Shown: positions 37,061 to 53,512, counted from the stretch's first letter. The stretch: 53,837 bases of DNA from Nitrospirota bacterium (GCA_029261195.1 JAJDBU010000011.1:1-53837), one strand, 5' to 3'. Numbers and translations are program-made. The notes: generated by a model not told the origin, from the sequence alone.

Positions 37061-37432
37061 GTGTCAGCAGTCAATTTACCTTCTAATTATTTGCCCATCC
37101 TGGTCTTCTTTTTTATTGCCTTGGCCTTCGGAGTCGTGACGATTTTGATGGGCTATCTGGTCCGTCCGAAGCGACCCTATCTCGAAAAACTCCACGCCTA
37201 TGAAAGCGGAATCCTTCCTGACACCGATGCACGGATGCAGTTTCCCTTTCGTTATTACCTCATCGCAATGCTCTTTGTCCTCTTCGATATTGAGATGGTC
37301 TTTTTGTATCCCTGGGCCGTCAGCTTTAACAAGCTCGGGCTTTTCGGCCTGATCGAAATGGTTTTGTTCTTATTGATCTTGTTTGTCGGGTATTTTTATG
37401 CCTGGAGGAAAGGGGCGCTCGAATGGGACTGA
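37061..37432 (+). CDS. nuoA: Complex I subunit NuoA
   Basis: A 123-residue membrane subunit with three helices. [15 protein letters not shown] and [20 protein letters not shown], with the conserved acidic residues in the second helix, are typical. It helps form the quinone channel at the arm junction. It starts at a GTG with GGAAGGG nine bases upstream and overlaps nuoB by 10 bases. Confidence 0.95.
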
Positions 37433-37902
37433 TTGATCGGCAGTTTGAAGAAAATGTCATCACGACGACGGTGGATTCTGCGGTGAATTGGGCGCGTAAA
37501 TCGGCCTTGTGGCCGATGACCTTCGGGCTGGCCTGTTGCGCGATCGAGATGATCTCCGTTGTCGCAGGCCGCTATGATCTGGATCGTTTTGGTGCAGGGG
37601 TTTTTCGAGCTTCTCCCCGACAGGCTGATTTGATGATTGTGGCCGGGACAGTCTGCCGCAAGATGGCACCGGTCATTCGCCGGATTTATGACCAGATGCC
37701 GGAACCGAGGTATGTGATCTCTATGGGTTCCTGTGCGACCTCCGGCAACATCTACAATAGCTATAGCGTTGTGCAGGGGGTTGATCGTTTTCTTCCGGTT
37801 GATGTTTATATTCCCGGCTGTCCTCCCCGCCCCGAAGCCTTGTTGGCTGGCATCATTCGCTTGCAGGAGAAAATTATGACACAGAAGGTATTCAGGAAAT
37901 AA
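37423..37902 (+). CDS. nuoB: Complex I subunit NuoB (cluster N2)
   Basis: A 159-residue iron-sulfur subunit. The N2 ligands are visible: adjacent cysteines in ACCAIEM, one in GTVCRKMAP, one in SMGSCATSG and one in IPGCPPRPE. It passes electrons to quinone at the interface with NuoD. Starts inside the end of nuoA; nuoC follows after about 20 bases. Confidence 0.97.
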
Positions 37903-37923: not shown

Positions 37924-38415
37924 ATGAATCAGATAGCCCTTAATATTAAAGAAGCGCTTCCCGATGCCGTTGAATCTTATTTCGAAGCATTCGGTGAGCT
38001 GACCGTCGTCATTGCGCGGAACAAGATCTTCGAAGTCTGCCGCTATGTGCATGACGAACCAGAGCTCGATTTTGATTTCATTACCGATATTTGTTCGGTC
38101 GATTATCCGAACGAGTCACCTCGTTTTGAAATGATTTATCAATTTTATTCGATTAAGCTTAACCATCGTATCCGCTTGAAGGCCCGTGTTCCCGAAGAAG
38201 ATTGCGTGATTGACTCAGTCGTCGCCATCTGGCAGGGTGCCAACTTTATGGAGCGGGAGGTCTATGACATGATGGGCATTCGCTTTAACAATCATCCGGA
38301 TTTGAGAAGAATTTTGATGTCGGATGATTATGAAGAAGGCTACCCTCTCCGCAAGGATTTTCCTGTTGAAGGTCGTGGCTGGCGGGATCAATTTGAAACC
38401 CTGGAGACCGAATAA
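37924..38415 (+). CDS. nuoC: Complex I subunit NuoC
   Basis: A 163-residue peripheral-arm subunit, separate from NuoD (not fused as in E. coli). The 30-kDa-subunit signature appears as EREVYDMMGIRFNNHPDLRR followed by GYPLRKDFP. It lies between nuoB and nuoD, five bases before the latter. Confidence 0.95.
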   Translation: MNQIALNIKEALPDAVESYFEAFGELTVVIARNKIFEVCRYVHDEPELDFDFITDICSVDYPNESPRFEMIYQFYSIKLNHRIRLKARVPEEDCVIDSVVAIWQGANFMEREVYDMMGIRFNNHPDLRRILMSDDYEEGYPLRKDFPVEGRGWRDQFETLETE

Positions 38416-38420
38416 GCCTT

Positions 38421-39677
38421 ATGAGCGATTTTCAGGAAAAGGCCGGTGCTTACGACCATTACGGTGAAGATGAACTCGAAAGCGGTATCGCAACCGAAGG
38501 GACTCAGAAGCGGGTTGAAGACCTCCTTCTGAACATGGGACCTCAGCACCCGTCCACCCACGGTGTACTCCGGATTGTGCTTGAGCTTGAAGGAGAGACG
38601 GTCGTCTCAGCGACGCCTTATCTCGGCTATCTTCATCGGGGGGTTGAAAAACTTGCTGAAAACTCGACGTATAATCAGATTATCCCGTTGACGGACCGTC
38701 TCGACTATACTTCCTCAATGACCAATAATTACGCCTTTGTCCGGGCAGTTGAAAAGTTGCTTCAGATTGAAATTCCGGAACGGGCCGAATATGTGCGCAC
38801 GATTGTTGCCGAGATGCAGCGGCTTGCGGGTCATCTTTTCTGGCTTGGAACACAGGCCCTCGACATCGGTGCGATGACTGTTTTCTTCTATACCTTCCGT
38901 GAAAGGGAGGTGCTGCTGGATCTCTTTGAATTGCTCTGCGGGGCTCGTCTGACCATGAGTTATTACCGGGTTGGCGGAGTAGATCGTGATCTCACGCAGG
39001 AAATCATTGACAAACTTTACGCTTTTTTAGAGACCTTCCCTGAAAAGATTGATGAGTATAATACTCTACTTGAAACAAACCGGATCTGGATTGGCCGAAC
39101 CCGTGATGTCGCGGTGATTTCGGCGGAAGATGCAATCAACTTCGGCTTGAGCGGTCCGACGCTCCGGGGATCAGGGGTGAATTATGATATTCGCAAGGCG
39201 GAGCCTTACGGTGCCTATGACAAGGTGGAGTGGGAGGTGCCGCTGGGTAAAAACTGTGACACCTATGATCGATACTGGATTCGCGTTGAAGAAATGCGAC
39301 AGAGCGCGAAGATCATCAAGCAGTGTCTTGATCAGCTTCCAGAAGGGCGTATTATTACGGATCTGCCGCAGATTGCCTATCCGCCGCGAGACAAAATTCA
39401 AACTGAAATGGAAAGTTTAATCCACCATTTTATGATCGCCACGGATGGTTTTGATGTGCCGGAAGGGGAGATTTACTGTGGTACTGAAAGTCCGAAGGGC
39501 GAGCTTGGGTTTTACATCAAGAGTCAAGGGGGGAACCGGCCTTATCGCCTTAGAATACGCCCGCCTTCGTTTATCCATATGGGGGCTTTTGAGCATATGG
39601 CAAAGGGATATATGATCTCCGACATTGTGACGATTTTCGGGACCTACGATGTTGTCATGGGAGAGTGCGACCGCTAA
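38421..39677 (+). CDS. nuoD: Complex I subunit NuoD (49-kDa)
   Basis: A 418-residue subunit related to NiFe hydrogenase large subunits, lining the quinone pocket. GPQHPSTHGVLR carries the conserved histidine. GYLHRGVEKLAE, TDRLDYTSSM (with the tyrosine that hydrogen-bonds quinone) and RRIRPPSF-like RLRIRPPSFIH are present. About 35 extra acidic residues precede the core. Hydrogenase cysteines are absent, as expected. Confidence 0.96.
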   Translation: MSDFQEKAGAYDHYGEDELESGIATEGTQKRVEDLLLNMGPQHPSTHGVLRIVLELEGETVVSATPYLGYLHRGVEKLAENSTYNQIIPLTDRLDYTSSMTNNYAFVRAVEKLLQIEIPERAEYVRTIVAEMQRLAGHLFWLGTQALDIGAMTVFFYTFREREVLLDLFELLCGARLTMSYYRVGGVDRDLTQEIIDKLYAFLETFPEKIDEYNTLLETNRIWIGRTRDVAVISAEDAINFGLSGPTLRGSGVNYDIRKAEPYGAYDKVEWEVPLGKNCDTYDRYWIRVEEMRQSAKIIKQCLDQLPEGRIITDLPQIAYPPRDKIQTEMESLIHHFMIATDGFDVPEGEIYCGTESPKGELGFYIKSQGGNRPYRLRIRPPSFIHMGAFEHMAKGYMISDIVTIFGTYDVVMGECDR

Positions 39678-39710
39678 TCAGTTTTTGATTTGGAAAGACA
39701 AGGAAAAGAT

Positions 39711-40244
39711 TTGAAATTAAAAACCCTTTCAGAGAAAACCGTCAAACGCATTGAGGCGGAGTATACGAAATATCCGGACAAGCGCTCTGTTACGCTGCCG
39801 GCGCTTCGGATCGTTCAGGAAGATAATGCCCATATTTCGGAGTCGGCGATGGCAGATATCGCGACCCTGCTCGGCTTGACGCCGATCCAGGTCTATGAGG
39901 TTGCGACTTTCTACAGTCAGTACAATTTGAAACCGGTTGGCAAATATTTTATCCAGGTCTGCAAAACCCTCGCCTGCTCGCTTGTGGGTGCGGGTTCGAT
40001 TGTGGACTACCTTCAAGAAAAATTAGGGATTGCCGTCGGCGAGACCACGCAGGACGGACTCTTTACTTTGAAACTGGTTGAATGTCTGGCGGCCTGCGGT
40101 GGTGCGCCGATGATGCAGATTAATGATCGCTATTATGAGGGCTTAAACCCCGAAAGGGTGGATCGCATTCTCAGTGATCTCAAAAAATACGGTACGAGCG
40201 ATTTAGCAACCGGGCCGTTTATGTTGCCGGTGATGCAGGGATAG
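39711..40244 (+). CDS. nuoE: Complex I subunit NuoE (24-kDa)
   Basis: A 177-residue thioredoxin-fold subunit binding the N1a [2Fe-2S] cluster: CKTLAC and CLAACGGAP supply the four cysteines (C-x4-C and C-x3-C). The frame opens at a TTG at 39690, but the TTG at 39711 has AAGGAAAAG just upstream and starts LKLKTLSEKT. I prefer the latter; both are non-ATG. Partner of NuoF in NADH oxidation. Confidence 0.92.
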   Translation: MKLKTLSEKTVKRIEAEYTKYPDKRSVTLPALRIVQEDNAHISESAMADIATLLGLTPIQVYEVATFYSQYNLKPVGKYFIQVCKTLACSLVGAGSIVDYLQEKLGIAVGETTQDGLFTLKLVECLAACGGAPMMQINDRYYEGLNPERVDRILSDLKKYGTSDLATGPFMLPVMQG

Positions 40245-40249
40245 AAGCG

Positions 40250-41551
40250 ATGGCTGATTACGAATTGATCCTTTTTAAAAATATGGCAAAAACGGGCTAT
40301 GATGGTTCGCTGAAGGCCTATCAGCAAGAAGGTGGCTACGCTGCACTTAAGAGGGTGCTGAGTGATTTTTCTCCGGCCGATGTGATTGACGAGGTGAAAA
40401 AGTCCGGTTTGCGTGGTCGGGGTGGGGCAGGATTTCCTGCGGGTCTGAAGTGGAGCTTTATTCCGAAAGATTATAAGGGGCCTCGCTACCTCTGCTGTAA
40501 TGCTGACGAAAGTGAGCCGGGTACCTATAAAGACCGCCAACTCATGGAGCGTGATCCGCACCAGATGCTGGAAGGGATGGCAATTTGCTGTTACGCCATC
40601 GGTGCCCAAAAAGCGTATATCTATATTCGCGGCGAGTTTGATCTCGGTGCAGAAATCCTGAATGACGCGATTGATGAGGCTTGCACTGCAAAGGTACTCG
40701 GAAAGGATATTTTTGGCTCCGGTTTTAACCTGGAAATTGTTGTTCATCGAGGGGCAGGTGCCTACATCTGTGGAGAAGAGACCGCTCTTTTGGAGTCGAT
40801 TGAAGGTAAACGGGGGAAACCGAGGATTAAACCGCCCTTTCCCGCGATTCATGGGCTTTACCAGGAACCCACTGTCATTAACAATGTGGAGACTTTGGCG
40901 AATATACCGCACATCATCAATAAGGGGGCGAGTTGGTTTGCCGGCATCGGAACTGAAAAGAGTACAGGCACCAAGATTTATTCGGTCTCCGGCCATGTGA
41001 AACGGCCCGGCAATTTTGAAGCCCCGATGGGCGTGACGCTACGAGAAATTATTTATGATTTTGCCGGAGGTATCAAAGGCGACAAGCAACTTAAGGCCGT
41101 GATTCCCGGCGGCGCGTCGGCCCCCTTTATGACGCCGGAGCAGATCGATACGCCGATGGATTTTGATTCCATCAAGGCCATTGGTTCGATGCTGGGTTCT
41201 GCGGCGATCACTGTGATGGATGAAACGACCTGCATCGTCTGGGCTGCCATGAACCTGATGGAATTTTTTCATCATGAGTCTTGCGGGCAATGTACCCCGT
41301 GCAGAGAAGGCAGCGCCTGGATTCTCCAGATCCTGCGTCGGATTGAAAACGGTCTTGGCGAAGAGACCGATCTGGCCTTGCTTGAAGAGCTTTGCGGACG
41401 GATCGGGGGAAATACAGTTTGTGCCTTTGGAGACGCTGAAATCGGTCCGATCCTGTCCACGATTAAACATTTCAGGGCGGAGTACGAAAACCATATTAGA
41501 GAGAAGTGTTGTCCTTTGCGTCCGAAAGCACGCTTGGCGATGGCCCACTAA
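40250..41551 (+). CDS. nuoF: Complex I subunit NuoF (NADH/FMN-binding)
   Basis: A 433-residue flavoprotein that takes the hydride from NADH. The NADH site is GRGGAGFPAGLKW, the FMN site CNADESEPGTYKDR, and the N3 [4Fe-4S] ligands ESCGQCTPCREGS plus a later cysteine in GNTVCAFGD. The full-length NADH module (E, F, G) shows this is an NADH dehydrogenase rather than a ferredoxin- or F420-linked variant. Confidence 0.97.
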   Translation: MADYELILFKNMAKTGYDGSLKAYQQEGGYAALKRVLSDFSPADVIDEVKKSGLRGRGGAGFPAGLKWSFIPKDYKGPRYLCCNADESEPGTYKDRQLMERDPHQMLEGMAICCYAIGAQKAYIYIRGEFDLGAEILNDAIDEACTAKVLGKDIFGSGFNLEIVVHRGAGAYICGEETALLESIEGKRGKPRIKPPFPAIHGLYQEPTVINNVETLANIPHIINKGASWFAGIGTEKSTGTKIYSVSGHVKRPGNFEAPMGVTLREIIYDFAGGIKGDKQLKAVIPGGASAPFMTPEQIDTPMDFDSIKAIGSMLGSAAITVMDETTCIVWAAMNLMEFFHHESCGQCTPCREGSAWILQILRRIENGLGEETDLALLEELCGRIGGNTVCAFGDAEIGPILSTIKHFRAEYENHIREKCCPLRPKARLAMAH

Positions 41552-41556
41552 AAACG

Positions 41557-44169
41557 ATGAGCGAATTGGTTACATTTAAAGTCAATGACATTGAGGTGAG
41601 CGCTCCAAAGGGCATGCTACTGATTGAGGCCGTCAAAAAGGCAGGTGTGGAGATTCCGCATTTCTGTTATCACCCCCGCTTAAAACCGGATGCGAACTGC
41701 CGCATGTGTCTTGTCGAAATTGAAAAAATGCCAAAGCTGCAGACAGCCTGTACGATGCCTGTGGCCGAAGGTATGGTGGTTCAAACCACCTCAGACTCCG
41801 TTGTTGCTTCCCAAAATGGTGTCATGGAGTATCTGCTGGGTAATCATCCGCTCGACTGTCCTGAATGTGATCAGGGCGGGGAGTGCCAGCTTCAGGATTT
41901 TGGTCACCAGCATTCTAAATTAGGCAGCCGCTTCCTTGAACAAAAACGGGTTTTTCCAAAAGAATATTTCGGGCCTTTGGTCGAAAAAGAAATGAACCGT
42001 TGCGTCAGTTGTCTGCGCTGTGTCCGCTACTGTGACGAGGTGATGGGTGTCACGGCTTTGGGTTCTTTTGACCGGGGTAACGGAACGCAGATTGGCACCT
42101 TCGCTCATGGGGAGTTGGACTGCGAATATTGCGGAGGCTGTATTCAGATCTGTCCGGTGGGCGCCCTGACCTCTCGTCTCTCAATGTATGAAAACCGAAC
42201 CTGGCAGTTAAAGAAAACTGACACTATCTGCAACTATTGCGGGGACGGCTGTTCCTTAATCCTGGAAGGCGTCAAGGACGACATTACGCGGGTCAGTTCC
42301 GAAACAGGGGCAGGCAGGAATCGGGGAGATCTCTGTGCCCGTGGATTTTTTGGATACGGCGCAATCAATCACAAAGACCGTCTTTCGCGCCCTCGTTTGA
42401 ATACGAAGGGTAGAACTCTGGAAGTCACTTGGGATTGGGCCTTCAACAAGGCAGCGGAAGATCTGAAAAAAATTGTGGCACAGCACGGACCGGATGCAGT
42501 TGGCGGTGTAATCTCGACGCATTGCAGCAATGAAGAGGCTTATCTTTTTCAGAAGTTAATGCGGGAGGTGATCGGGACACCTCACGTCGACAGCACGGCG
42601 CGCTACGGTTATATCAATGCCTTAAGCGCGCTGAATGAGGTCTTCGGAACGGCCCGACTGAGTCACTATGAAGACATCCGCTCGGCGGACGTACTCCTTG
42701 TTGTCGGTGCGGACATGGCTGAAAGCAACCCGATTGCAGGAATACAGGTTAAGGATGCTGTCCGGGCCGGGGCGCAGTTGATTACACTGGATGCTTCCTC
42801 CCCTGAGAGAGATACCTATTACAGCCATCTGCCCAGTTTGGCCACACAACATCTTAATATTCGTTTTGGAACAGAACAGAGCGCCATCATCGGTCTGGTC
42901 AAGGCCCTGTTTGACAAGGGTATCGCATCTTCCGCCCCAAGGAAGCTGGTGAACCAGATTAAAAAGAAGGTCGCGGTCATCTCTTTTGCTGAAATCGAGG
43001 CGACCACAGGTCTAACGGAAAATAGCTATCGCCGGGCGGCGCAGACCTACGCAGGTGCCGAGCATGCCGTGATGATTGTGGGTCGAGGTGTTATACAGAG
43101 CGAGGGCGGCTATCAAAACATGCTGAGACTTGAGGAGCTTTCGATTCTCGCCGGGCAGGTGGGTCGTGAGGGTGCCGGTATCCTTCCCCTCGCAAGCGAG
43201 AATAATGCCTTTGGTGTTGTCGAGTCGGGTGCCTCCTCTGAGTACTTGCCTGGCTTGAAACGGCAAGAGGCGAAACCGAAAGCTTTGACCCTGCTTGAGA
43301 TGATTGATGCGGCGGCAGAAGGGAAGCTTAAGGCGCTTTATTTAGTGGGGGCAGATCCGCTCCGGAACTTGCCCCAGAAAAAGGTTGCAGACGCCTTGAG
43401 CAATCTGGATTTGCTGATCTGCCAGGATCTTTTTCCGACGGAAACGAATGCACACGCTCATATTCTGCTTCCGGCGGCAAGTTTTGCCGAAAAATCCGGA
43501 CACTATACGAATCATGAGGGTGTCGTTCAGAAGGGACACCAGGCGATCGAACCGGTCGGGGGAGCCAAGCCGGACTGGATGATCTTTTCCATCCTCTCAA
43601 ATAAAATAAAAGAAGAAACAACGCTTCCCTATTTCAAGTTGGTGGGGTATCGTTCTGCCGATGAGGTCTGGAAAGAAGCTGTGATGGCGATGCCGAATGA
43701 CTGGCAGCAGAATTCCAAGGAAGCCATTTCAAGGCATGTCGCTGCCTATGCGGAGCACGCGGAGATTCAATATGCTCTGCAGACGCCTCGGGCTTCAAAT
43801 GGTGTGATGGACTTGCAACTCGGGCAGAACCGTTACCATGCGGGTACGACCTCACGTTATGCCGAGGGCTTAAATCGACTTCTTGATTGCGAGTGCGTTG
43901 TGATTCATCCCGATGATGCAGAGGCTTTGCAATTAGAGGAGGGTGAGCGGGTGCGCCTTTCGAGTCACTTGTCCGGCGCTTCTGTCGAACTTCCGATTCA
44001 ATTGAGCCAAAAGCAAGGGAGAGGGGCCTTGTTCGTCCCGGAACATTTCGGATTGTCTGTCAAAGGTCTCTTGCCCCTGACCATAGATCGTGAAAGCAAA
44101 GTCCCTTATGGGGACCGGGGTCCTGTGAAACTTTCAAAGGTTGCGGCCTCTACGCAAGTAAAGGGATAA
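41557..44169 (+). CDS. nuoG: Complex I subunit NuoG
   Basis: An 870-residue iron-sulfur and molybdopterin-oxidoreductase-like subunit. Ligands: N1b at C37, C48, C51, C65; N5 as H97-x3-C-x2-C-x5-C; N4-type clusters at C149-C159 and C189-C199; N7 as C225-x2-C228-x3-C232-x27-C260. The extra N7 cluster is therefore retained. The frame reaches back to a GTG at 41506 inside nuoF, but the ATG at 41557 gives the normal N-terminus. The C-terminal half is a degenerate formate-dehydrogenase-like domain. Confidence 0.96.
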
Positions 44170-45202: not shown

Positions 45203-45209
45203 GACCGTG

Positions 45210-45791
45210 ATGACGGGTAAAGAATTATTTAAAAAGGCTGTTTTTTATGAGATCCTGCAAGGTCTGGGCTTGACCTTCAAACACATGCTGTTTGGAAAGA
45301 CCATGACCGAGCAGTATCCTCGGGAAAAGCCGAGCTTGCCCGATGGCTGGCGCGGGGCGATCGTTCAGCTTCGCTACGACGACGGCTCGGAAAAATGCGT
45401 CGGCTGCGCTCTTTGCGAAGCGGCTTGTCCTTCTCACTGCATTACGGTTGAAAGTGCCGAAAGAGAAGATATGCCCCAAAAAAGATATTCCAAGCGATAT
45501 ACGCTGGATATGACACGATGCGTTTTTTGCGGATTTTGTGTTCAGGCCTGCCCGGTGACTGCCCTTGCCTCCAGCAAGGAATATGAATTAGCGACAACCG
45601 ACAAGCGGGAACTCATAATGGAAATGGATGACTTGCTGAAACTCGGTGACAAATATTTTCCAATTCGAGAGAAACGACCGCAATACACCGAAGATCGATT
45701 TAATTTTTTTAAGCAGAACAAAGCATCTGGATTTCCAGTAGCCCATGTTCCGGTGGTCAATGTTCCGATAGCAAAGAAAGGAGCCGCCTGA
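45210..45791 (+). CDS. nuoI: Complex I subunit NuoI
   Basis: A 193-residue subunit with two [4Fe-4S] clusters (N6a, N6b) in a ferredoxin fold: CVGCALCEAACPSHCI and CVFCGFCVQACPVTAL. A GTG directly precedes the ATG used here. The N-terminal amphipathic helix (LFKKAVFYEILQGLGLTF) lies on the membrane. The stop overlaps the nuoJ start. Confidence 0.95.
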   Translation: MTGKELFKKAVFYEILQGLGLTFKHMLFGKTMTEQYPREKPSLPDGWRGAIVQLRYDDGSEKCVGCALCEAACPSHCITVESAEREDMPQKRYSKRYTLDMTRCVFCGFCVQACPVTALASSKEYELATTDKRELIMEMDDLLKLGDKYFPIREKRPQYTEDRFNFFKQNKASGFPVAHVPVVNVPIAKKGAA

Positions 45792-46393
45792 TGGCCGCGC
45801 AGCTTCTTTTCTTCTACTTCGGAGGGGTGACCATCGCCGGCGCAATCGTTGCGGTGACTTCCCGCAACATCGTCTACAGTGCCCTCTCTCTGCTGGTCGC
45901 CTTCATCCATATCGCGGGAATTTATGTCTTATTAAACGCCGAGTTCATCGCAGCTGTGCAAATCCTTGTCTATGCCGGGGCCATCCTTGTCTTGTATCTC
46001 TTTGTTTTAATGCTCTTTAATCCGAGCGAAGAGAAACTTTACCTGCATAAGCAAGCAAAGGTCGGGATCTTTCTCGGAGTGGTTGTTTTGTTTATGATGC
46101 TTTTTGCCGGTTATAAGACGGAGATCATTGGAAAGGGAGGTCCGCTGACCGCTCAAGCTGTAAAAGAGATGGGCCATACCCGTGTAATCGGAAACGCCCT
46201 TTTTACTGACTATCTCTTTCCCTTTGAGGTGGCCTCCTTGATCCTTCTCGTGGCGATGTTCGGAGCGATTGTACTGGCGGGTCGCGGCGTCCATCGCAAA
46301 AAAGGACCTGCAGGGCGGATTGACCTCTCATACAGAGACAAACTTCCAAAGAAATCATCAGAAACACCAGAGGAGGTGATAGTCGGAAGATGA
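45791..46393 (+). CDS. nuoJ: Complex I subunit NuoJ
   Basis: A 200-residue membrane subunit with five helices. VYAGAILVLYLFVLMLF, with the pi-bulge region important for coupling, identifies it. The polar C-terminal tail (about 165-200) is cytoplasmic. ATGA overlap with nuoK. Confidence 0.95.
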   Translation: MAAQLLFFYFGGVTIAGAIVAVTSRNIVYSALSLLVAFIHIAGIYVLLNAEFIAAVQILVYAGAILVLYLFVLMLFNPSEEKLYLHKQAKVGIFLGVVVLFMMLFAGYKTEIIGKGGPLTAQAVKEMGHTRVIGNALFTDYLFPFEVASLILLVAMFGAIVLAGRGVHRKKGPAGRIDLSYRDKLPKKSSETPEEVIVGR

Positions 46394-46692
46394 TCCCTTT
46401 AGATTGGTATCTCACATTGGGTTTTTTTCTCTTCGCGATTGGTGTTGCGGGCGTTTTGGTCCGTCGAAATATTATCATGGTGCTGCTTTCAATCGAGTTG
46501 ATCTTGAATTCGGCCAATATTACCTTTGTGGCCTATTCAAACTATCACCAGTCGATCAACGGTCAGATGATGGTCTTTTTTATCATGACAATGGCGGCCG
46601 CAGAGGTCGCGCTGGGTCTTGCTTTAGTGATTGCGCTCTTCCGTACGCGATCAACATTGAATGTCGATCAAATTAACCTGATGAAATGGTAG
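46390..46692 (+). CDS. nuoK: Complex I subunit NuoK
   Basis: A 100-residue, three-helix, MrpC-like subunit. The two proton-path glutamates are present in LLSIELILNS and AAAEVALGLALV. It is the last canonical gene before the MrpD-like cassette; 51 bases separate them. In standard operons nuoL would follow here. Confidence 0.95.
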   Translation: MIPLDWYLTLGFFLFAIGVAGVLVRRNIIMVLLSIELILNSANITFVAYSNYHQSINGQMMVFFIMTMAAAEVALGLALVIALFRTRSTLNVDQINLMKW

Positions 46693-46743: not shown

Positions 46744-48252
46744 ATGGAAATTGAGTCAATTCGACCTGCTTTAGTCATGCTGGTTGCCCTAATCGGCGCG
46801 GGCTTGATTGTTGCCAATCGGAACAATCCGAATAAGCGAGAGGCCTGTTCGATTGCAACGGCTTTAACGATGTTTTCCCTGGTCATGTCCATGATCCCGG
46901 GCGTGCTTGAGGGCAATACCTATCACTTTACCCTTTTTACCTTTTTGGAGGAAGTCTCTTTTACTCTAAAAGTCGATGCTCTGGGCATGACCTTCGCCTC
47001 GGTCGCCTCGACCCTGTGGGTGATCACTTCTTTCTACTCCATCGGCTATATGCGTCCGACGAAGGAACATGCGCAAACCCGGTTTTATGCCTGCTTCGCT
47101 GTGACCCTTTCCATGACGATGGGGGTTGCCTTTTCGGGTAACCTGCTCACGCTGTATCTCTTCTATGAACTCTTGTCCATGATCACCTATCCGCTGGTTG
47201 CCCATAAAGGAACGGATGTCGCCTATGCCGGGGCGAATAAATATTTTTTCTACCTGCTCGGGACGTCCAAGGCCTTTATGTTGTCGGGCATGTTGCTTAC
47301 TTATGCGATTGCCGGCAATCTTGATTTTCAGTATGGCGGTCTTTTCCCCGCAGGTGCCGATTCTACCGTCTTAGTCATCATTTTCATTCTATTGGTTGCC
47401 GGTGTCGGCAAAGCGGCGATTATGCCTTTTCACGCCTGGTTGCCTGCTGCGATGGTGGCGCCGACGCCTGTGAGTGCCTTACTTCACGCCGTGGCTGTCG
47501 TAAACACAGGGGTTTTTTCAGTTCTTCGCATCATCTTCCACGTTTTTGGTGTGGATTTGATGAAGTCCCTGCACCTGGGGACGGGACTCATTGTGTTTAC
47601 CTCCATTACGATTTTGATGGCCTCCCTTTTTGCAATGACTCGAGATAACCTGAAGGCACGACTTGCCTATTCCACTGTCAGCCAACTTTCCTATATTACG
47701 CTCGGCGGTGCCCTCCTGACGGTCTCGGGGATGACCGGAGGCATTATTCATATTGCCAACCATGCCTTCTCTAAAATCACCCTCTTTTTTGCCGCAGGAT
47801 CGATTTATGTTATTACGCACAAAACGGATATTTCTCAGATGAAAGGCATCGGTAGACAGCTTCCTTTTACGATGCTTGCCTTTTCCATCGGTGCGCTCAG
47901 CATGATTGGTGTTCCGCCGGTTTCGGGTTTTACCTCGAAGTGGTTCCTGGCTTTGGGGTCAATTGAAGCTGATCAAATTCCTGTTTTAATTGTGCTTCTG
48001 ACGAGTACGCTCTTGAATGCCGGATATTTTTTGCCAATTATCTATAATGCTTTTTTCAAGGCCCCAGATGAGGAGCCAGCACACGCGATTGCGGGCGACA
48101 AGGACGGTGGCAGCCATGATGAGCATCATGAGATCAATGAGGCAGATCACAAATTTCTTGTTGCGCCGCTCTGTGTGACCGCTGTCATTGCGATCCTCTT
48201 GGGTATTTTCCCCAACCTTTTTATTAACCTTGCAAAATTGGTGATTGGGTAA
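46744..48252 (+). CDS. MrpD-like antiporter subunit (first), in the nuoL position
   Basis: A 502-residue polytopic protein of the NuoL/M/N-MrpA/D superfamily. The pattern AAMVAPTPVSALLHAVAVV (235-253) is closest to MrpD rather than NuoL. Channel residues: Glu142 in the fifth helix (FYELLS), Lys223 in the seventh (GKAAIMPFH), His248 in the eighth and Lys344 (HAFSK). Asn254 stands where many MrpD proteins, as I recall, have lysine. A His/Asp/Glu-rich loop spans 442-470. The protein ends with a membrane helix and lacks a lateral-helix arm. It is probably an extra proton or sodium pump unit of complex I. Its stop overlaps the next start. Confidence 0.85.
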   Translation: MEIESIRPALVMLVALIGAGLIVANRNNPNKREACSIATALTMFSLVMSMIPGVLEGNTYHFTLFTFLEEVSFTLKVDALGMTFASVASTLWVITSFYSIGYMRPTKEHAQTRFYACFAVTLSMTMGVAFSGNLLTLYLFYELLSMITYPLVAHKGTDVAYAGANKYFFYLLGTSKAFMLSGMLLTYAIAGNLDFQYGGLFPAGADSTVLVIIFILLVAGVGKAAIMPFHAWLPAAMVAPTPVSALLHAVAVVNTGVFSVLRIIFHVFGVDLMKSLHLGTGLIVFTSITILMASLFAMTRDNLKARLAYSTVSQLSYITLGGALLTVSGMTGGIIHIANHAFSKITLFFAAGSIYVITHKTDISQMKGIGRQLPFTMLAFSIGALSMIGVPPVSGFTSKWFLALGSIEADQIPVLIVLLTSTLLNAGYFLPIIYNAFFKAPDEEPAHAIAGDKDGGSHDEHHEINEADHKFLVAPLCVTAVIAILLGIFPNLFINLAKLVIG

Positions 48253-48527
48253 TGTGGATTATTAACTACCTCGAAAAGATTATTGAACATCCGGAAGAAA
48301 TGAAAAAGACCAAGAAATACTTCCTCTACTTCGGGATTGCATTGGTCGTTGTGGATATCATTATCCATATCCCGCAGTTACATTTGGTGCATATCTATTT
48401 CTTCTGGGATTGGATTCCAGGGTTCTCATCGTTTTATGGCATTCTTTCAACCTACCTGATTATTGTGATTTCAAAATGGCTCGGCCATGAGTTATTGATG
48501 AAACCAGAGGATTTTTATAATGATTGA
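48252..48527 (+). CDS. 91-residue two-helix membrane protein between MrpD-like subunits
   Basis: A small protein with a charged N-terminus (LEKIIEHPEEMKKTKK) and two hydrophobic helices (about 23-42 and 57-77) joined by an aromatic loop (YFFWDWIPGF). Its start overlaps the upstream stop and its end overlaps the next gene by 8 bases. Such tight coupling makes it very likely a dedicated subunit or assembly factor of the two antiporter-like proteins. It does not look like NuoK/MrpC (three helices) or another named Mrp subunit. Confidence 0.7.
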   Translation: MWIINYLEKIIEHPEEMKKTKKYFLYFGIALVVVDIIIHIPQLHLVHIYFFWDWIPGFSSFYGILSTYLIIVISKWLGHELLMKPEDFYND

Positions 48528-50367
48528 TCTCTGGATTCATCCGGGCTTTCTCTTCTTTTTGGCTGCTGCTGCACTGCCCTTTGTCAAGACGCAGTGGAAG
48601 AGCATCTTTAAGCTGACTGTCCCTGTTGTAGGCTTTCTATCCCTGCTCCTCGTGTCCCACGGGAGCCACGGCGTTCTTTCCCTGATGGGCCAAACCGAGA
48701 TGATCTTCGGACGGGTGGATAAGCTGTCCCTCGTCTTTGGATATGTCATCACGATTGCAACCCTGGTTGGCATGGTCTTTTCCCTCCATGTGAAGGAAGA
48801 CAAAGAGCATATGGCGGGGCTGGTTTATGCCGGTTCGGCGCTCGGAACTGTTTTCGCCGGTGATCTGCTAACGGTCTTCCTTTTTTGGGAAATCATGGCC
48901 TTCTCTTCCGCGCTGCTGGTTTTTTACGCGCCATGGAAAGACGCTGCCGTAAAGGGTATGCGCTATCTCTATGTCCATATCTTCGGGGGGCTACTGCTCC
49001 TGGCCGGTATCTTCATCCACGTCGGTGAAACAGGGACGACAGTATTTGATGCCCTGCCCCATGAAGGAGTCGGCCCGATGTTGATTCTCTGCGGTTTCCT
49101 TCTCAATGCCGCAGTCCCGCCCTTTTCCGCCTGGTTGCCGGATGCTTATCCCGAATCAACGATTACCGGCGTCGTTTTTATGAGCGCGCTCACAACGAAG
49201 ACGGCTGTCTACGTCTTGCTCAGAGGATTTGCCGGGGCAGAAATCCTGGTGCCTCTGGGTGTTTTCATGGCCCTCTACGGGGTCGTCTATGCCGTGATTG
49301 AAAACGATATTCGCCGCTTGCTTGCCTATCACATCATCTCTCAGGTCGGTTACATGGTTGCGGGTGCGGGTATGGGTTCGGAAATGGCAGTGAATGGTGC
49401 CACTTCCCACGCCTTCGCCCATATCCTGTATAAAGGGCTTTTGATGATGGGTATGAGTTCGGTGATGCTCATGACCGGCTTGAGAAAGCTCACTGACCTA
49501 GGCGGACTTTATAAATATATGCCCTGGACCTTTATGTTGTACATGATCGGCGGTTTTGCTATTTCGGGTTTCCCCTTCTTTTCCGGTTTCGTCAGTAAAT
49601 CGATGGTCATCTCTGCCGCTCAAGAGTTGCACCGGCCCTGGGTGGCGATGTTGTTAACCCTTGCATCCGCCGGGACTTTCCTTCATACAGGCCTGAAGCT
49701 GCCCTACTACGTTTTTTTCTGGAAAGACTGGGATCAGAAAAAAATTGAGGCAAAAGATCCGCCGAAAAATATGATTTGGGGAATGGCCTTAGCCGCTTTT
49801 GCCTGCACCTTTATCGGGCTCTTCCCGGGTGCCCTTTATCAAGCCTTGCCATTTGATAGCGACTACCATCCCTATACCTGGGGGCATGTCATCGGGGCCT
49901 ATCAGATTCTGCTTTTGACCGGAGTCGGTTTCTTCATGCTCTTGAAAATGCTTGATCCCGACGAGACAATCAGTATGGATACAGATTGGACGTATCGAAA
50001 GGCCATCCACGGATTTACCTGGTTTGTTAAAAAGCCAGTGGTCTGGTGGGAAACCCGAGCAGTAGAAGTCTATAAAAGCCATCTGATTGAGCCGGTGAAA
50101 AAGTTCTCTCGCATCGGTTGGACTATTGATACCTGGGTCTTTGACGGTGTAGTGAACTTTGCAGGATGGTCGACCCGGATTGAAAGCAAAATTCTTGAGA
50201 TGTTCGACATGCACCTGATCGACGGGGCCGTGACGAGTGCGCCGACCATTATTGAGGCAAGCGCAAAACGGCTGCGTAAGCTTCAAACCGGATTTATCCA
50301 GAACTACACACTGGCTATGATCGTCGGGGTTGTGGTACTGGGCATTGTTGCACTGATTGTAATTTGA
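48520..50367 (+). CDS. MrpD-like antiporter subunit (second) with NuoL-type lateral-helix arm
   Basis: A 615-residue antiporter-like subunit. Glu124 (FLFWEIM), Lys227 (ALTTKTAVY) and Lys305 (HILYKG) are present, but Asn196 (FLLNAAVPP) stands where NuoM/NuoL have the central lysine of helix 7. The AWLPDAYPESTITG loop marks the Na+/H+ antiporter subunit D group. After the core, about residue 478, a long polar arm (479-593) leads to a last membrane helix (594-615). Its end, RLRKLQTGFIQNY, matches the C-terminus of NuoL. The arm holds two related elements, VFDGVVN (540-546) and LIDGAVT (566-572). It probably does the job of NuoL at the distal end of the membrane arm. Confidence 0.8.
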   Translation: MIDLWIHPGFLFFLAAAALPFVKTQWKSIFKLTVPVVGFLSLLLVSHGSHGVLSLMGQTEMIFGRVDKLSLVFGYVITIATLVGMVFSLHVKEDKEHMAGLVYAGSALGTVFAGDLLTVFLFWEIMAFSSALLVFYAPWKDAAVKGMRYLYVHIFGGLLLLAGIFIHVGETGTTVFDALPHEGVGPMLILCGFLLNAAVPPFSAWLPDAYPESTITGVVFMSALTTKTAVYVLLRGFAGAEILVPLGVFMALYGVVYAVIENDIRRLLAYHIISQVGYMVAGAGMGSEMAVNGATSHAFAHILYKGLLMMGMSSVMLMTGLRKLTDLGGLYKYMPWTFMLYMIGGFAISGFPFFSGFVSKSMVISAAQELHRPWVAMLLTLASAGTFLHTGLKLPYYVFFWKDWDQKKIEAKDPPKNMIWGMALAAFACTFIGLFPGALYQALPFDSDYHPYTWGHVIGAYQILLLTGVGFFMLLKMLDPDETISMDTDWTYRKAIHGFTWFVKKPVVWWETRAVEVYKSHLIEPVKKFSRIGWTIDTWVFDGVVNFAGWSTRIESKILEMFDMHLIDGAVTSAPTIIEASAKRLRKLQTGFIQNYTLAMIVGVVVLGIVALIVI

Positions 50368-50422: not shown

Positions 50423-52060
50423 ATGGATTCAAACGTTTACGGATTTCCGATCCTATCACTGCTGGCCTATCTTCCGCTGATCGGGGCGATCGGGATCCTC
50501 TTTTTAAATAAAGACGATAAAAAGATGATCATGCAATCGGCCTTCGGAGTCTCGATTGTCACGATGCTGGTCTCTTTTATGTTGATACCGGGTTTTGATT
50601 CGACAAAAGCCGAGATGCAGTTTACTGAAAGCCATGAATGGATCCCGAGCTTGGGCGTGCAATATCTTTTTGGCATTGACGGGATCAGCCTGCTCCTGAT
50701 TGTATTAACCACGATTATTACTGCCATCGCGATTGTCAGTTCTTACACAGCAATACAAGAGCGCATCAAGGAATATTATGTCTCGATTCTCTTTTTAGAA
50801 ATGGGCATGCTCGCCGTCTTTATGTGCGGTGATTTCTTCCTCTTTTACATCTTCTGGGAGGTCATGCTGGTTCCGATGTATTTTCTGATCGGGATCTGGG
50901 GTGGTGGAAGGCGACTCTACTCCGCAATTAAGTTTTTCCTCTACACCCTTTTCGGCTCCCTTTTTATGTTGTTGGGCATCCTGGCTCTCTACTTCCTGAA
51001 TGCCGACCCCAAGTATGGTAATGGGCAATATACCTTCGCCATTGATACCCTTCAGAATATCAACCTGCCGCTGCATCCCTACCAATACTGGATCTTCATT
51101 TGCTTTTTCTTAGGTTTCGCCATCAAGGTGCCGATGTTTCCCTTTCACACCTGGCTACCAGACGCACACACTGACGCCCCGACAGCGGGGAGTGTCATTC
51201 TAGCGGGTGTTTTGTTGAAGATGGGCACCTACGGTTTTGTTCGTTTCTGTCTACCGATTGTTCCTGCAGCAAGTGTGTATTTTGTGCCATTAATGTCGGG
51301 GCTTGCCTTAGTAGGCATTGTCTACGGCGCATTAGTCGCCCTGGCGCAGAAAGATGTCAAACGGCTGGTCGCCTACTCTTCGGTCAGCCATTTGGGTTTT
51401 GTGATGCTCGGCATCTTTGCTCTGAATACCCACGGCATTAGCGGCAGCATTCTTCAAATGATCAATCACGGGGTCTCAACCGGCGCTCTCTTTTTGATTG
51501 TCGGGATGATCTACGAGCGTCGCCACACCCGATTGATTGCAGACTTTGGTGGGCTTTCCTACCGTATGCCTGTTTACACCGCATTCTTTGCGGTCTCCAT
51601 GTTTTCTTCAATGGGACTTCCGGGCTTGAACGGTTTTGTCGGGGAATTTTTGATTCTTGTTGGAGTATTTGAAGCCAATACAGTGTTTGCCGGAATCGCC
51701 GTTGTGGGTGTTGTTCTGGGCGCAGCATACAGCCTTTGGCTTTTCCAGAGGATGATGTTTGGGAAGCTTGATAAACCTGAAAATCAGAAGCTGAATGATA
51801 TGAATGGACGGGAAATTGCCTATATGGCGCCACTTGTTTTATTTATGTTTTGGATCGGACTCTACCCGAGACCCTTTATTCAGGTGATTGAGCCAGCAGT
51901 TGCGAAAATATTGCAACGGGTGGAGGCCGGAAGGAAGCTCGTCAATGTCACCTTTCCTCAGTCAATTCAGACCGTCGAATTAGAAAAAGAGCCTGGATCA
52001 GAAGACAAGGCTTTAATGATGGCATCACAGATTGATTCAAAAAGAGGCATCAGCGAATAA
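50423..52060 (+). CDS. nuoM: Complex I subunit NuoM
   Basis: A 545-residue antiporter-like subunit with canonical NuoM features: the glutamate in FYIFWEVMLVPMYF, lysine in GFAIKVPMFPFHTWLPDAH, lysine in AGVLLKMGTYG and NHGVSTGALFLIVGM in helix 12. AGGAGG seven bases before the ATG gives it the strongest ribosome binding site of the operon. An unusually long polar C-terminal tail (about 505-545) ends the protein. nuoN starts at the next base. Confidence 0.96.
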   Translation: MDSNVYGFPILSLLAYLPLIGAIGILFLNKDDKKMIMQSAFGVSIVTMLVSFMLIPGFDSTKAEMQFTESHEWIPSLGVQYLFGIDGISLLLIVLTTIITAIAIVSSYTAIQERIKEYYVSILFLEMGMLAVFMCGDFFLFYIFWEVMLVPMYFLIGIWGGGRRLYSAIKFFLYTLFGSLFMLLGILALYFLNADPKYGNGQYTFAIDTLQNINLPLHPYQYWIFICFFLGFAIKVPMFPFHTWLPDAHTDAPTAGSVILAGVLLKMGTYGFVRFCLPIVPAASVYFVPLMSGLALVGIVYGALVALAQKDVKRLVAYSSVSHLGFVMLGIFALNTHGISGSILQMINHGVSTGALFLIVGMIYERRHTRLIADFGGLSYRMPVYTAFFAVSMFSSMGLPGLNGFVGEFLILVGVFEANTVFAGIAVVGVVLGAAYSLWLFQRMMFGKLDKPENQKLNDMNGREIAYMAPLVLFMFWIGLYPRPFIQVIEPAVAKILQRVEAGRKLVNVTFPQSIQTVELEKEPGSEDKALMMASQIDSKRGISE

Positions 52061-53512
52061 ATGGATCCGATTTTACCCGATATCCAACTGATTGCGATTC
52101 TCCCCGAAATCATTCTGGCCCTTTTGGCCTGTGGACTCTTTGTTGCTGAGTCTTTTATTCAGAGAGAAAAAAAAGAACAGCTCGGCTATTATGCCATCGG
52201 CGCTTTGGCCCTGACCCTTTTGTCGACCATTCCGCTTTGGGGGAAAGAAATCTCGACATTTAGCGGGATGGTTGTCCTTGACAGCTACGCCCTGTTTTTT
52301 AAGACCGCTCTGATTTTAATTTCCGCTATTATCATTTTGATGTCGTTTGAGTACGTCAAAATAGAGCGCATCAACCTCGGAGAATATTACGGGGTAATTC
52401 TCTTCGCCACGGTGGGGATGATGCTGATGCCTTCCGCAAATGATTTGCTCTCCTTCTACCTTTCTCTTGAATTGATGTCGATGTCTCTCTATGTTCTGGT
52501 TGCATTTATGCGGAAAGATCCTAAGTCGGTCGAGTCGGGCATCAAGTATTTTTTAACCGGGGTTCTGGCCTCAGGAATCATCCTTTATGGGATTGCCTTC
52601 CTCTATGGGACATCCGGAACAACCAATCTAGGTGAAATTTCGGTCTTTATTAAAACGCAGGAGATCGGATCCAGTCCATCCCTCATCATGGCTTTTATCC
52701 TGATGATCACCGGCTTCGGATTTAAGATTGCTGCGGTGCCCTTCCATATGTGGGCACCCGATGTCTACGAAGGCGCGCCGACCCCGGTCACTGCCTTCCT
52801 TTCTTCGGGTTCAAAGGTGGCGGCTTTTTCAGTGATGCTCCGTGTTTTTATTAATAGTTTTGACTTAAACAGCGGTAGCTGGTGGCAGATCCTGTGGATT
52901 ATTGCCGTCATGACCATGACCCTCGGTAATCTGGTTGCTTTGACTCAGACTAAGTTGAAACGGATGCTCGCCTATTCCTCAATTGCTCATGCGGGATATC
53001 TTTTAATGGGCCTGATCGCAGCCTCACAGATAGGCTACGCAGGCATCATGATCTATTTGGTCGGATATGCCTTTATGACCCTCGGAGCCTTCACCGTAAT
53101 TGTCCTTCTCTGCCGAAAAAATCATCGCGGAGATCAGATCAGCGATCTGGCCGGGGTGGCACGAACCAATCCTTTTGTCGGCTTAACCTTCATCCTTTTT
53201 GCCCTGTCTTTGATTGGTATCCCGCCGACAGCGGGATTTGTCGGCAAGCTTTTCCTGTTTAATGCTGCGATTCAAGGCGGCTTCTACTGGTTGGCCATCA
53301 TCGGTGTTCTCAACAGCACCGTATCGCTCTATTATTATTTCAGGGTGGTGAGGGTGATGTACATGGATGAGCCAGCTGAAGATTTGGCTCTATCCTTTTC
53401 TCCAGGAATGAAAATAGCCTTGGGTTTTACGGCTGGGATGACGCTTCTATTAGGTCTCTACCCAGAGCCCATCATCCGGGCCGCAATCGATTCCGTTAAG
53501 ATCTTTCTTTAG
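52061..53512 (+). CDS. nuoN: Complex I subunit NuoN
   Basis: A 483-residue antiporter-like subunit next to NuoK in the membrane arm. FYLSLELMSMSLYVLVAFMRKD, GFGFKIAAVPFHMWAPDVYEGAPTPVTAFLS (in two parts around the lysine) and KLKRMLAYSSIAHAGYLLMG are typical NuoN stretches. It begins immediately after the nuoM stop and is the last gene of the operon. No clear terminator follows in 53513-53753. Confidence 0.96.
   Translation: MDPILPDIQLIAILPEIILALLACGLFVAESFIQREKKEQLGYYAIGALALTLLSTIPLWGKEISTFSGMVVLDSYALFFKTALILISAIIILMSFEYVKIERINLGEYYGVILFATVGMMLMPSANDLLSFYLSLELMSMSLYVLVAFMRKDPKSVESGIKYFLTGVLASGIILYGIAFLYGTSGTTNLGEISVFIKTQEIGSSPSLIMAFILMITGFGFKIAAVPFHMWAPDVYEGAPTPVTAFLSSGSKVAAFSVMLRVFINSFDLNSGSWWQILWIIAVMTMTLGNLVALTQTKLKRMLAYSSIAHAGYLLMGLIAASQIGYAGIMIYLVGYAFMTLGAFTVIVLLCRKNHRGDQISDLAGVARTNPFVGLTFILFALSLIGIPPTAGFVGKLFLFNAAIQGGFYWLAIIGVLNSTVSLYYYFRVVRVMYMDEPAEDLALSFSPGMKIALGFTAGMTLLLGLYPEPIIRAAIDSVKIFL

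Follow-up and report, generated by a model that had tools for sequence, protein, structure and literature searches.

The window analysed here is the whole of contig C3 (53,837 nucleotides; GCA_029261195.1 JAJDBU010000011.1:1-53837) from the 3.04 Mb, 99% complete genome of a Nitrospirota bacterium, which probably belongs to the class of Nitrospira-type genomes and to the order of Manganitrophus-like ones. It carries a complex I (nuo) operon in which nuoL is replaced by two genes for MrpD-like antiporter subunits, mrpD1 and mrpD2, with a small gene between them. MrpD2 appears to be a chimera, in which an MrpD2 head is joined to a lateral-helix tail (its last ~97 residues) of the type found in NuoL of Complex_I_1, a complex I of 'Ca. 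Manganitrophus' (PMC9040806). On balance, we lean towards an NADH:quinone oxidoreductase of Complex_I_1 descent, with the functions of NuoL split over MrpD1 and MrpD2.

Results

Open reading frame (ORF) analysis gave the order nuoA-K, mrpD1 (502 residues), a 91-residue gene, mrpD2 (615 residues), nuoM and nuoN (Table 1). Against the NuoL model, MrpD1 scores 208 bits and MrpD2 133 bits, both below the cut-off of 407.5 bits. MrpD1 reaches 679 bits with NF006236 (monovalent cation/H+ antiporter subunit D, NCBIfam) and MrpD2 675 bits with NF009310 (cation/H+ antiporter subunit D, NCBIfam), each above the cut-off of the model. In a tree of 146 antiporter-like subunits both proteins lie outside the NuoL clade: MrpD1 falls in an MrpD1 clade (support 100) that is sister to NuoL (94), and MrpD2 in an MrpD2 clade (support 100) together with rhizobial and other green-type MrpD2. 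An initial annotation, made from the sequence alone, had already proposed that two MrpD-like subunits replace NuoL; its gene order, lengths, overlaps and 51-55 base gaps agree with the ORF coordinates. The profile search, phylogeny and genome-wide nuoL search that it had suggested returned MrpD-type models, MrpD clades and no separate nuoL, and the 615-residue protein does not lie inside canonical NuoL. Its statement that no NuoL-type core resembling SALIHAATMV occurs in the operon was mistaken, as MrpD1 carries SALLHAVAVV, a motif like that of NuoL which includes the NuoL-type histidine.

When the genome was examined by family profile searches, no NuoL above the TIGR01974 cut-off, such as a canonical complex I would have, was found in the operon or elsewhere. 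The best TIGR01974 match stays under the cut-off, and all 17 PF00361 matches were assigned otherwise: four in the window, five on C71, and two each in an Mrp cluster on C15, in a bd-like oxidase cluster on C64, in another on C55 and beside DabA on C55. In the seven other genomes of the family, likewise, no match to the NuoL model was better than E 1e-108; the remaining genomes of the class sample that had matches all reached at least 1e-176. Since the genome has two NuoD, it has two complex I clusters, one in the window and one on C71. The latter resembles the Complex_I_3 of Manganitrophaceae, with MrpD1, MrpD2, two NuoM and NuoN, and NuoE, NuoF, NuoH and the small gene were not found in it (L018/L019). 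The small gene is likewise missing from five other clusters of the family. The only NuoH copy found in the genome is that of the window. The 2M cluster L125, too, showed no NuoE, NuoF or NuoH. Given one NuoH in the genome and none in the C71 cluster, NuoH may be common to the two complexes.

Apart from the replacement of NuoL, the window operon is orthologous to Manganitrophus Complex_I_1. Its nuoB, D, K, M and N are 87, 86, 79, 74 and 67% identical to those of a NuoL-bearing freshwater cluster (L117), and its NuoM and NuoN fall in Complex_I_1 clades of the subunit tree (support 100). NuoE, NuoF and NuoG, which together mark an NADH-dependent complex I, are all encoded in the operon, with TIGRFAM scores above cut-off.

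The case for a chimeric MrpD2 comes from comparing its two parts separately. Between window-type and Complex_I_3 MrpD2 the heads are 47-71% identical and the tails only 22-38%. The window-type tails share 40-55% identity with Complex_I_1 NuoL tails and 22-29% with a 2M-type NuoL tail. For the heads, a grouping of Complex_I_1 MrpD2 with NuoL was rejected in a topology test (p about 1e-43). For the tails, the same grouping was not rejected (p 0.39), and a single MrpD2 clade was (p 0.004). In one comparison genome with two mrpD2 genes (G168; L130, L133), the pair is at least 92% identical per 40 nucleotides until about nucleotide 440-460, where the helix starts, and past the first helix codons the identity drops to about 45%, the background level, which looks like a recent gene conversion of the head. 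MrpD2 of the oxidase clusters in the window's own genome (511 residues) ends about where the lateral helix would begin. As both the near-identity in G168 and the oxidase-cluster proteins stop there, the head/tail junction is a recurrent boundary. An AlphaFold model of MrpD2 alone had a predicted local distance difference test score (pLDDT) of 40; with 18 sequences the head became acceptable and the tail stayed below 50, so that neither the length of the helix nor the geometry of the arm can be read from the model. The structures it matched in the Protein Data Bank were all antiporter-like subunits.

Two further observations concern such pairs of genes. The G168 contigs carrying L130 and L133 break inside the near-identical part of the paralogous mrpD2 pair. 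Contig C72 of another genome (G170; L129) holds a second window-type complex I, whose MrpD2 has a head nearer to Complex_I_3 MrpD2 and a tail of the Complex_I_1 type.

Aligned with NuoL, NuoM and NuoN of E. coli, MrpD1 has the glutamate of transmembrane helix 5 (TM5), the TM7 lysine, the NuoL-type TM8 histidine and lysines in TM11 and TM12. MrpD2 has the TM5 glutamate and lysines in TM8 and TM12, and at the TM7 lysine position it has Asn196. The TM5 Glu/TM7 Lys pair of antiporter-like proton channels is complete in MrpD1 and incomplete in MrpD2. Across 132 sequences, the TM7 residue is asparagine in 29 and cysteine in one of the 30 MrpD2, and lysine in every MrpD1, NuoL, NuoM and NuoN (102/102). 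MrpD2 also has an invariant TM6 histidine of its own, His153.

These residues bear on the number of pumps. The initial annotation had counted four channels and more ions per NADH; with MrpD1, MrpD2, NuoM and NuoN all fully active, the enzyme would move about five ions per NADH or drive NAD+ reduction more strongly. Such a count is in keeping with the TM5, TM8 and TM12 residues retained by MrpD2, the TM8 lysine being found in nearly all NuoM too, with its 83-85% conservation in five relatives, which argues that it is not decaying, and with the practice of PMC9040806, where each MrpD is counted as a pump. However, the lysine that every MrpD2 lacks is one whose mutation abolishes function in E. 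coli NuoL, NuoM and NuoN (PMC3046159), and the Lys/Glu pair has been termed strictly conserved in Mrp structures (PMC9568556). We find four fully active channels unlikely. Because every MrpD2 examined is without the TM7 lysine, three ordinary channels and one atypical one is the safer count, and this 'extra pump' may in part serve as a structural adapter.

A C-terminal alignment places a single 26-residue insert site in the lateral helix (HL). The insert is present in 2M NuoL, Complex_I_1 NuoL, Complex_I_3 MrpD2 and the MrpD2 of families f1 and f29, and missing from rhizobial and other green-type MrpD2 and from ordinary NuoL. In all but one of 16 insert carriers the sequence matches itself best when shifted by 26 residues, with the register kept, and an FDxxVxDGxVNG motif is repeated across this offset; against shuffles, the self-match is clear mainly in Complex_I_1 sequences. 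The insert likely arose by tandem duplication. An apparent series of HL steps of ~26 residues (52, 77, 103) tracking three, four and five pumps came from start anchors that did not correspond and was rejected, because proper alignment shows one insertion site with two states. The length of the lateral helix does not track pump number: the insert accompanies a second NuoM (2M, Complex_I_3), MrpD1 (G177, G162) or nothing extra (freshwater Complex_I_1).

The extension in MrpD2 would also be accounted for if the enzyme took up a fifth antiporter-like subunit encoded elsewhere, such as NuoM2 from the C71 cluster. The four-subunit complexes of rhizobia and other Nitrospirota do without the extension, which otherwise goes with a second NuoM, and the single NuoH makes subunit sharing between the two clusters plausible. 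Yet the extension can persist without an extra subunit, since the freshwater three-subunit Complex_I_1 has it, and three relatives whose sequence continues past nuoN have no further antiporter gene there; we consider such recruitment in trans improbable. A fifth antiporter gene directly downstream of nuoN, where the contig ends after 325 bases, was rejected, as the relatives have none at that place.

The cassette of mrpD1, small gene and mrpD2 is not a rhizobial speciality, because it is present in at least four other Nitrospirota family groups (f7, f13, f15 and f20). Ensifer canadensis pT173d carries the block nuoK-mrpD1-small gene-mrpD2-nuoM-nuoN, with a small gene of 84 residues, and relatives of MrpD2 are found on other rhizobial plasmids. 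Homologues of the small protein (84-94 residues) lie between MrpD1 and MrpD2 in rhizobia and other Nitrospirota; the 91-residue protein matched no Pfam or NCBIfam family. Copies of the cassette also adjoin genes for bd-like oxidases or lie in further clusters that have no Nuo genes, and the family models name MrpD1 and MrpD2 'cation/H+ antiporter subunit D', which would suit a cation/proton antiporter of the three proteins that shares the operon and lies outside complex I. That arrangement is very improbable, given that the genome has no NuoL to complete the arm, that the MrpD2 tail is of the Complex_I_1 NuoL type and that the cassette occupies the exact place of nuoL in unrelated lineages.

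Orthologues of the window cluster, with MrpD2 83-85% identical, occur in five named metagenome-assembled genomes (MAGs), one of them 'Candidatus Manganitrophaceae bacterium M_MetaBat.18'. No NuoL was found in the family-f1 genomes examined; Complex_I_1 with NuoL was present in all Manganitrophaceae analysed by PMC9040806. Intermediates exist in two other families of the order, with the arrangement D1-small gene-NuoL-M-N in G177 (L122) and D1-NuoL in G162 (L124), and their MrpD1 group with that of the window (support 99). As MrpD1 adjoins NuoL there, it probably joined the complex while NuoL was present, and MrpD1 and MrpD2 apparently came into the operon separately. The earlier idea that the three genes were exchanged as a unit therefore stands only in part: the cassette is found as a unit elsewhere, but MrpD1 sits beside an intact NuoL in two families and the MrpD2 tail resembles the NuoL of relatives. 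Within the cassette, mrpD1 and the small gene overlap by 1 nucleotide and the small gene and mrpD2 by 8; the outer gaps are 51 (nuoK-mrpD1) and 55 nucleotides (mrpD2-nuoM). These gaps had been taken as a mark of exchange, a reading we dropped: they are shorter in the compared relatives and in Ensifer, and as gap sizes differ between relatives they carry no weight.

Several other clusters contain related genes. In the window's own genome, two loci (L020:8826-14651 and L022:3545-8961) pair MrpD1 and a tail-less MrpD2 (511 residues) with a bd-oxidase-like/cytochrome c fusion protein and resemble TO_2 of Manganitrophaceae, and the oxidase cluster on C64 has a homologue of the 91-residue protein between MrpD1 and MrpD2. 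DabA/DabB-like inorganic carbon uptake genes (L021:6770-12742) are consistent with an autotroph. Among the comparison genomes, the Complex_I_3 clusters of G166 (L143) and G168 (L144) have no MrpD1 between nuoK and MrpD2, although the small gene is retained in that of G166. In G166 neither NuoM nor NuoN of the Complex_I_1 type was seen; on its contig C89 (L145), the D1-small gene-D2 cassette adjoins genes weakly similar to NuoJ and NuoN, with an MrpD2 frame of about 750 residues, and is possibly an Mrp-like antiporter.

Table 1. Features of the complex I operon, in positions of the window.
Feature	Position	Strand	Basis
nuoA	37061..37432	+	ORF, homology
nuoB	37423..37902	+	87% identity to Complex_I_1 copy of freshwater Manganitrophus-like G174
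nuoC	37924..38415	+	ORF, homology
nuoD	38421..39677	+	TIGR01962 above cut-off; 86% identity to G174 Complex_I_1 copy
nuoE	39690..40244	+	TIGR01958 above cut-off
nuoF, NADH-binding subunit	40250..41551	+	TIGR01959 above cut-off
nuoG	41560..44169	+	TIGR01973 above cut-off
nuoH, sole NuoH found in genome	44171..45202	+	
nuoI	45207..45791	+	TIGR01971 above cut-off
nuoJ	45791..46393	+	
nuoK	46390..46692	+	NF004320 above cut-off
mrpD1 (D1), 502 residues	46744..48252	+	NCBIfam, tree, residue alignment
91-residue hydrophobic small subunit	48252..48527	+	no Pfam/NCBIfam family
mrpD2 (D2), 615 residues, putative head-tail chimera	48520..50367	+	NCBIfam, tree, tail comparison
Asn196 codon of MrpD2, TM7 lysine position	49105..49107	+	
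HL (lateral helix) plus final TM helix, residues 520-615 of MrpD2, putative swapped tail	50077..50364	+	
26-residue HL insert of MrpD2, about residues 543-568, apparent tandem duplication	50146..50223	+	
nuoM, Complex_I_1 type	50423..52060	+	profile match, tree
nuoN, Complex_I_1 type	52061..53512	+	profile match, tree

Discussion

If NuoL is functionally split, MrpD1 would take over its proton channel and MrpD2 would hold the lateral helix, the clamp of the membrane arm, with at most an atypical ion path, while the small protein could be a spacer associated with MrpD1. Our working count would be three ordinary antiporter channels (MrpD1, NuoM, NuoN) plus an MrpD2 of uncertain activity. We infer the arm order, the ion (H+ or Na+), the stoichiometry and the direction of electron flow from sequence. 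NADH oxidation or NAD+ reduction is favoured because NuoE, NuoF and NuoG are present. For Nitrospira, forward operation has been proposed for the canonical complex and ferredoxin reduction for the modified one (PMC7784846). Reverse electron flow, which the initial annotation had raised for the window operon, is possible and has no specific support here, and by analogy with Nitrospira the C71 cluster, without NuoE and NuoF, would be the better candidate for a reverse-flow enzyme.

An evolutionary path to this enzyme might have begun with an ancestor within the order that had MrpD1 beside NuoL. The NuoL head would later have been swapped for an MrpD2 head akin to the one in the five-pump complex of this genome, with the complex-specific tail kept, and the freshwater Manganitrophus lineage would have lost MrpD1 or never had it. 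More broadly, though only tentatively, MrpD2 could be a modular head without the pumping lysine, exchanged among complex I types and bd-like oxidases and, in the complex I of this order, joined each time to a lateral-helix tail native to the host complex, the channel and clamp jobs of NuoL being separated onto MrpD1 and MrpD2.

Several points weigh against the chimera and the division of labour proposed here. The free tail tree does not itself recover Complex_I_1 MrpD2 and NuoL as one clade, the tail sequences compared are short, and the modelled tail, with pLDDT below 50, is unreliable. MrpD2 may translocate ions by another route, since it keeps the other pump residues and its own invariant histidine. 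The insert is not simply 'room for MrpD1', because the freshwater complex without MrpD1 carries the same one. Draft assemblies make up most of the comparison genomes, and several are MAGs.

In the literature, green-type and five-pump complex I figure as enzymes that pump additional ions for each electron pair and thereby enable extreme chemolithotrophy. The real ion count matters, because, by arithmetic, moving two electrons over 430 mV needs a proton-motive force of about 215 mV with 4 H+ and 172 mV with 5 H+. With the TM7 lysine missing from MrpD2 in every example examined, the extra-ion count becomes directly testable; if the MrpD2 head is non-pumping, published four- or five-pump counts for green-type complexes would be one too many. 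Natural head-tail chimeras would show that the lateral helix is specific to each complex and can be exchanged, which bears on the long debate over its role, and relatives with MrpD1 beside NuoL offer a possible explanation of the helix insert in Complex_I_1, a puzzle raised in PMC9040806. We did not meet the head/tail chimera, the TM7 finding or the relation of helix length to pump number in the literature that we read.

Comparison with known systems

MrpD1 and MrpD2 score best against models of cation/H+ antiporter subunit D, as in the Mrp Na+/H+ antiporter (MrpA/MrpD). Unlike Mrp subunits, they sit in a complex I operon, and MrpD2 is without the conserved lysine and has a complex I-type lateral helix. 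Nitrospira has a 2M complex I (Chadwick et al. 2018, as reported in PMC9040806 and PMC7784846) that, like the window complex, has four antiporter-like subunits and an elongated lateral helix; according to these accounts it gained a second NuoM as the additional subunit and kept NuoL, unlike the window complex.

Complex_I_1 of 'Ca. Manganitrophus' (PMC9040806) has orthologous NuoA-K, NuoM and NuoN, and its helix tail, including the 26-residue insert, is of the type seen in the window, but its cluster encodes a true NuoL and lacks MrpD. The initial annotation had rightly pointed to MrpD-bearing complex I in manganese-oxidising Nitrospirota: a five-pump Complex_I_3 has been described in 'Ca. Manganitrophaceae' (PMC9040806). 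Complex_I_3 also has MrpD1 and MrpD2 in the place of NuoL, with related MrpD2 heads and an HL insert of equal length, but contains two NuoM where the window has one, and the MrpD2 tail of the Complex_I_3-like C71 cluster is nearer to the 2M NuoL type, unlike that of the window.

Closest in layout is the green complex I of Ensifer and other rhizobia, whose MrpD1 and MrpD2 are 55% and 52% identical to those of the window and stand in the same nuoK-mrpD1-small gene-mrpD2-nuoM-nuoN block. With two MrpD-like subunits replacing NuoL between nuoK and nuoM, the window operon has the defining arrangement of green complex I. It departs from the rhizobial form, in which MrpD2 has a different tail without the 26-residue helix insert, and the other nuo genes are ordered differently, whereas NuoM, NuoN and the rest of the window operon are of the Manganitrophus Complex_I_1 type. 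The window operon thus appears to be a further form of the known MrpD-bearing complex I.

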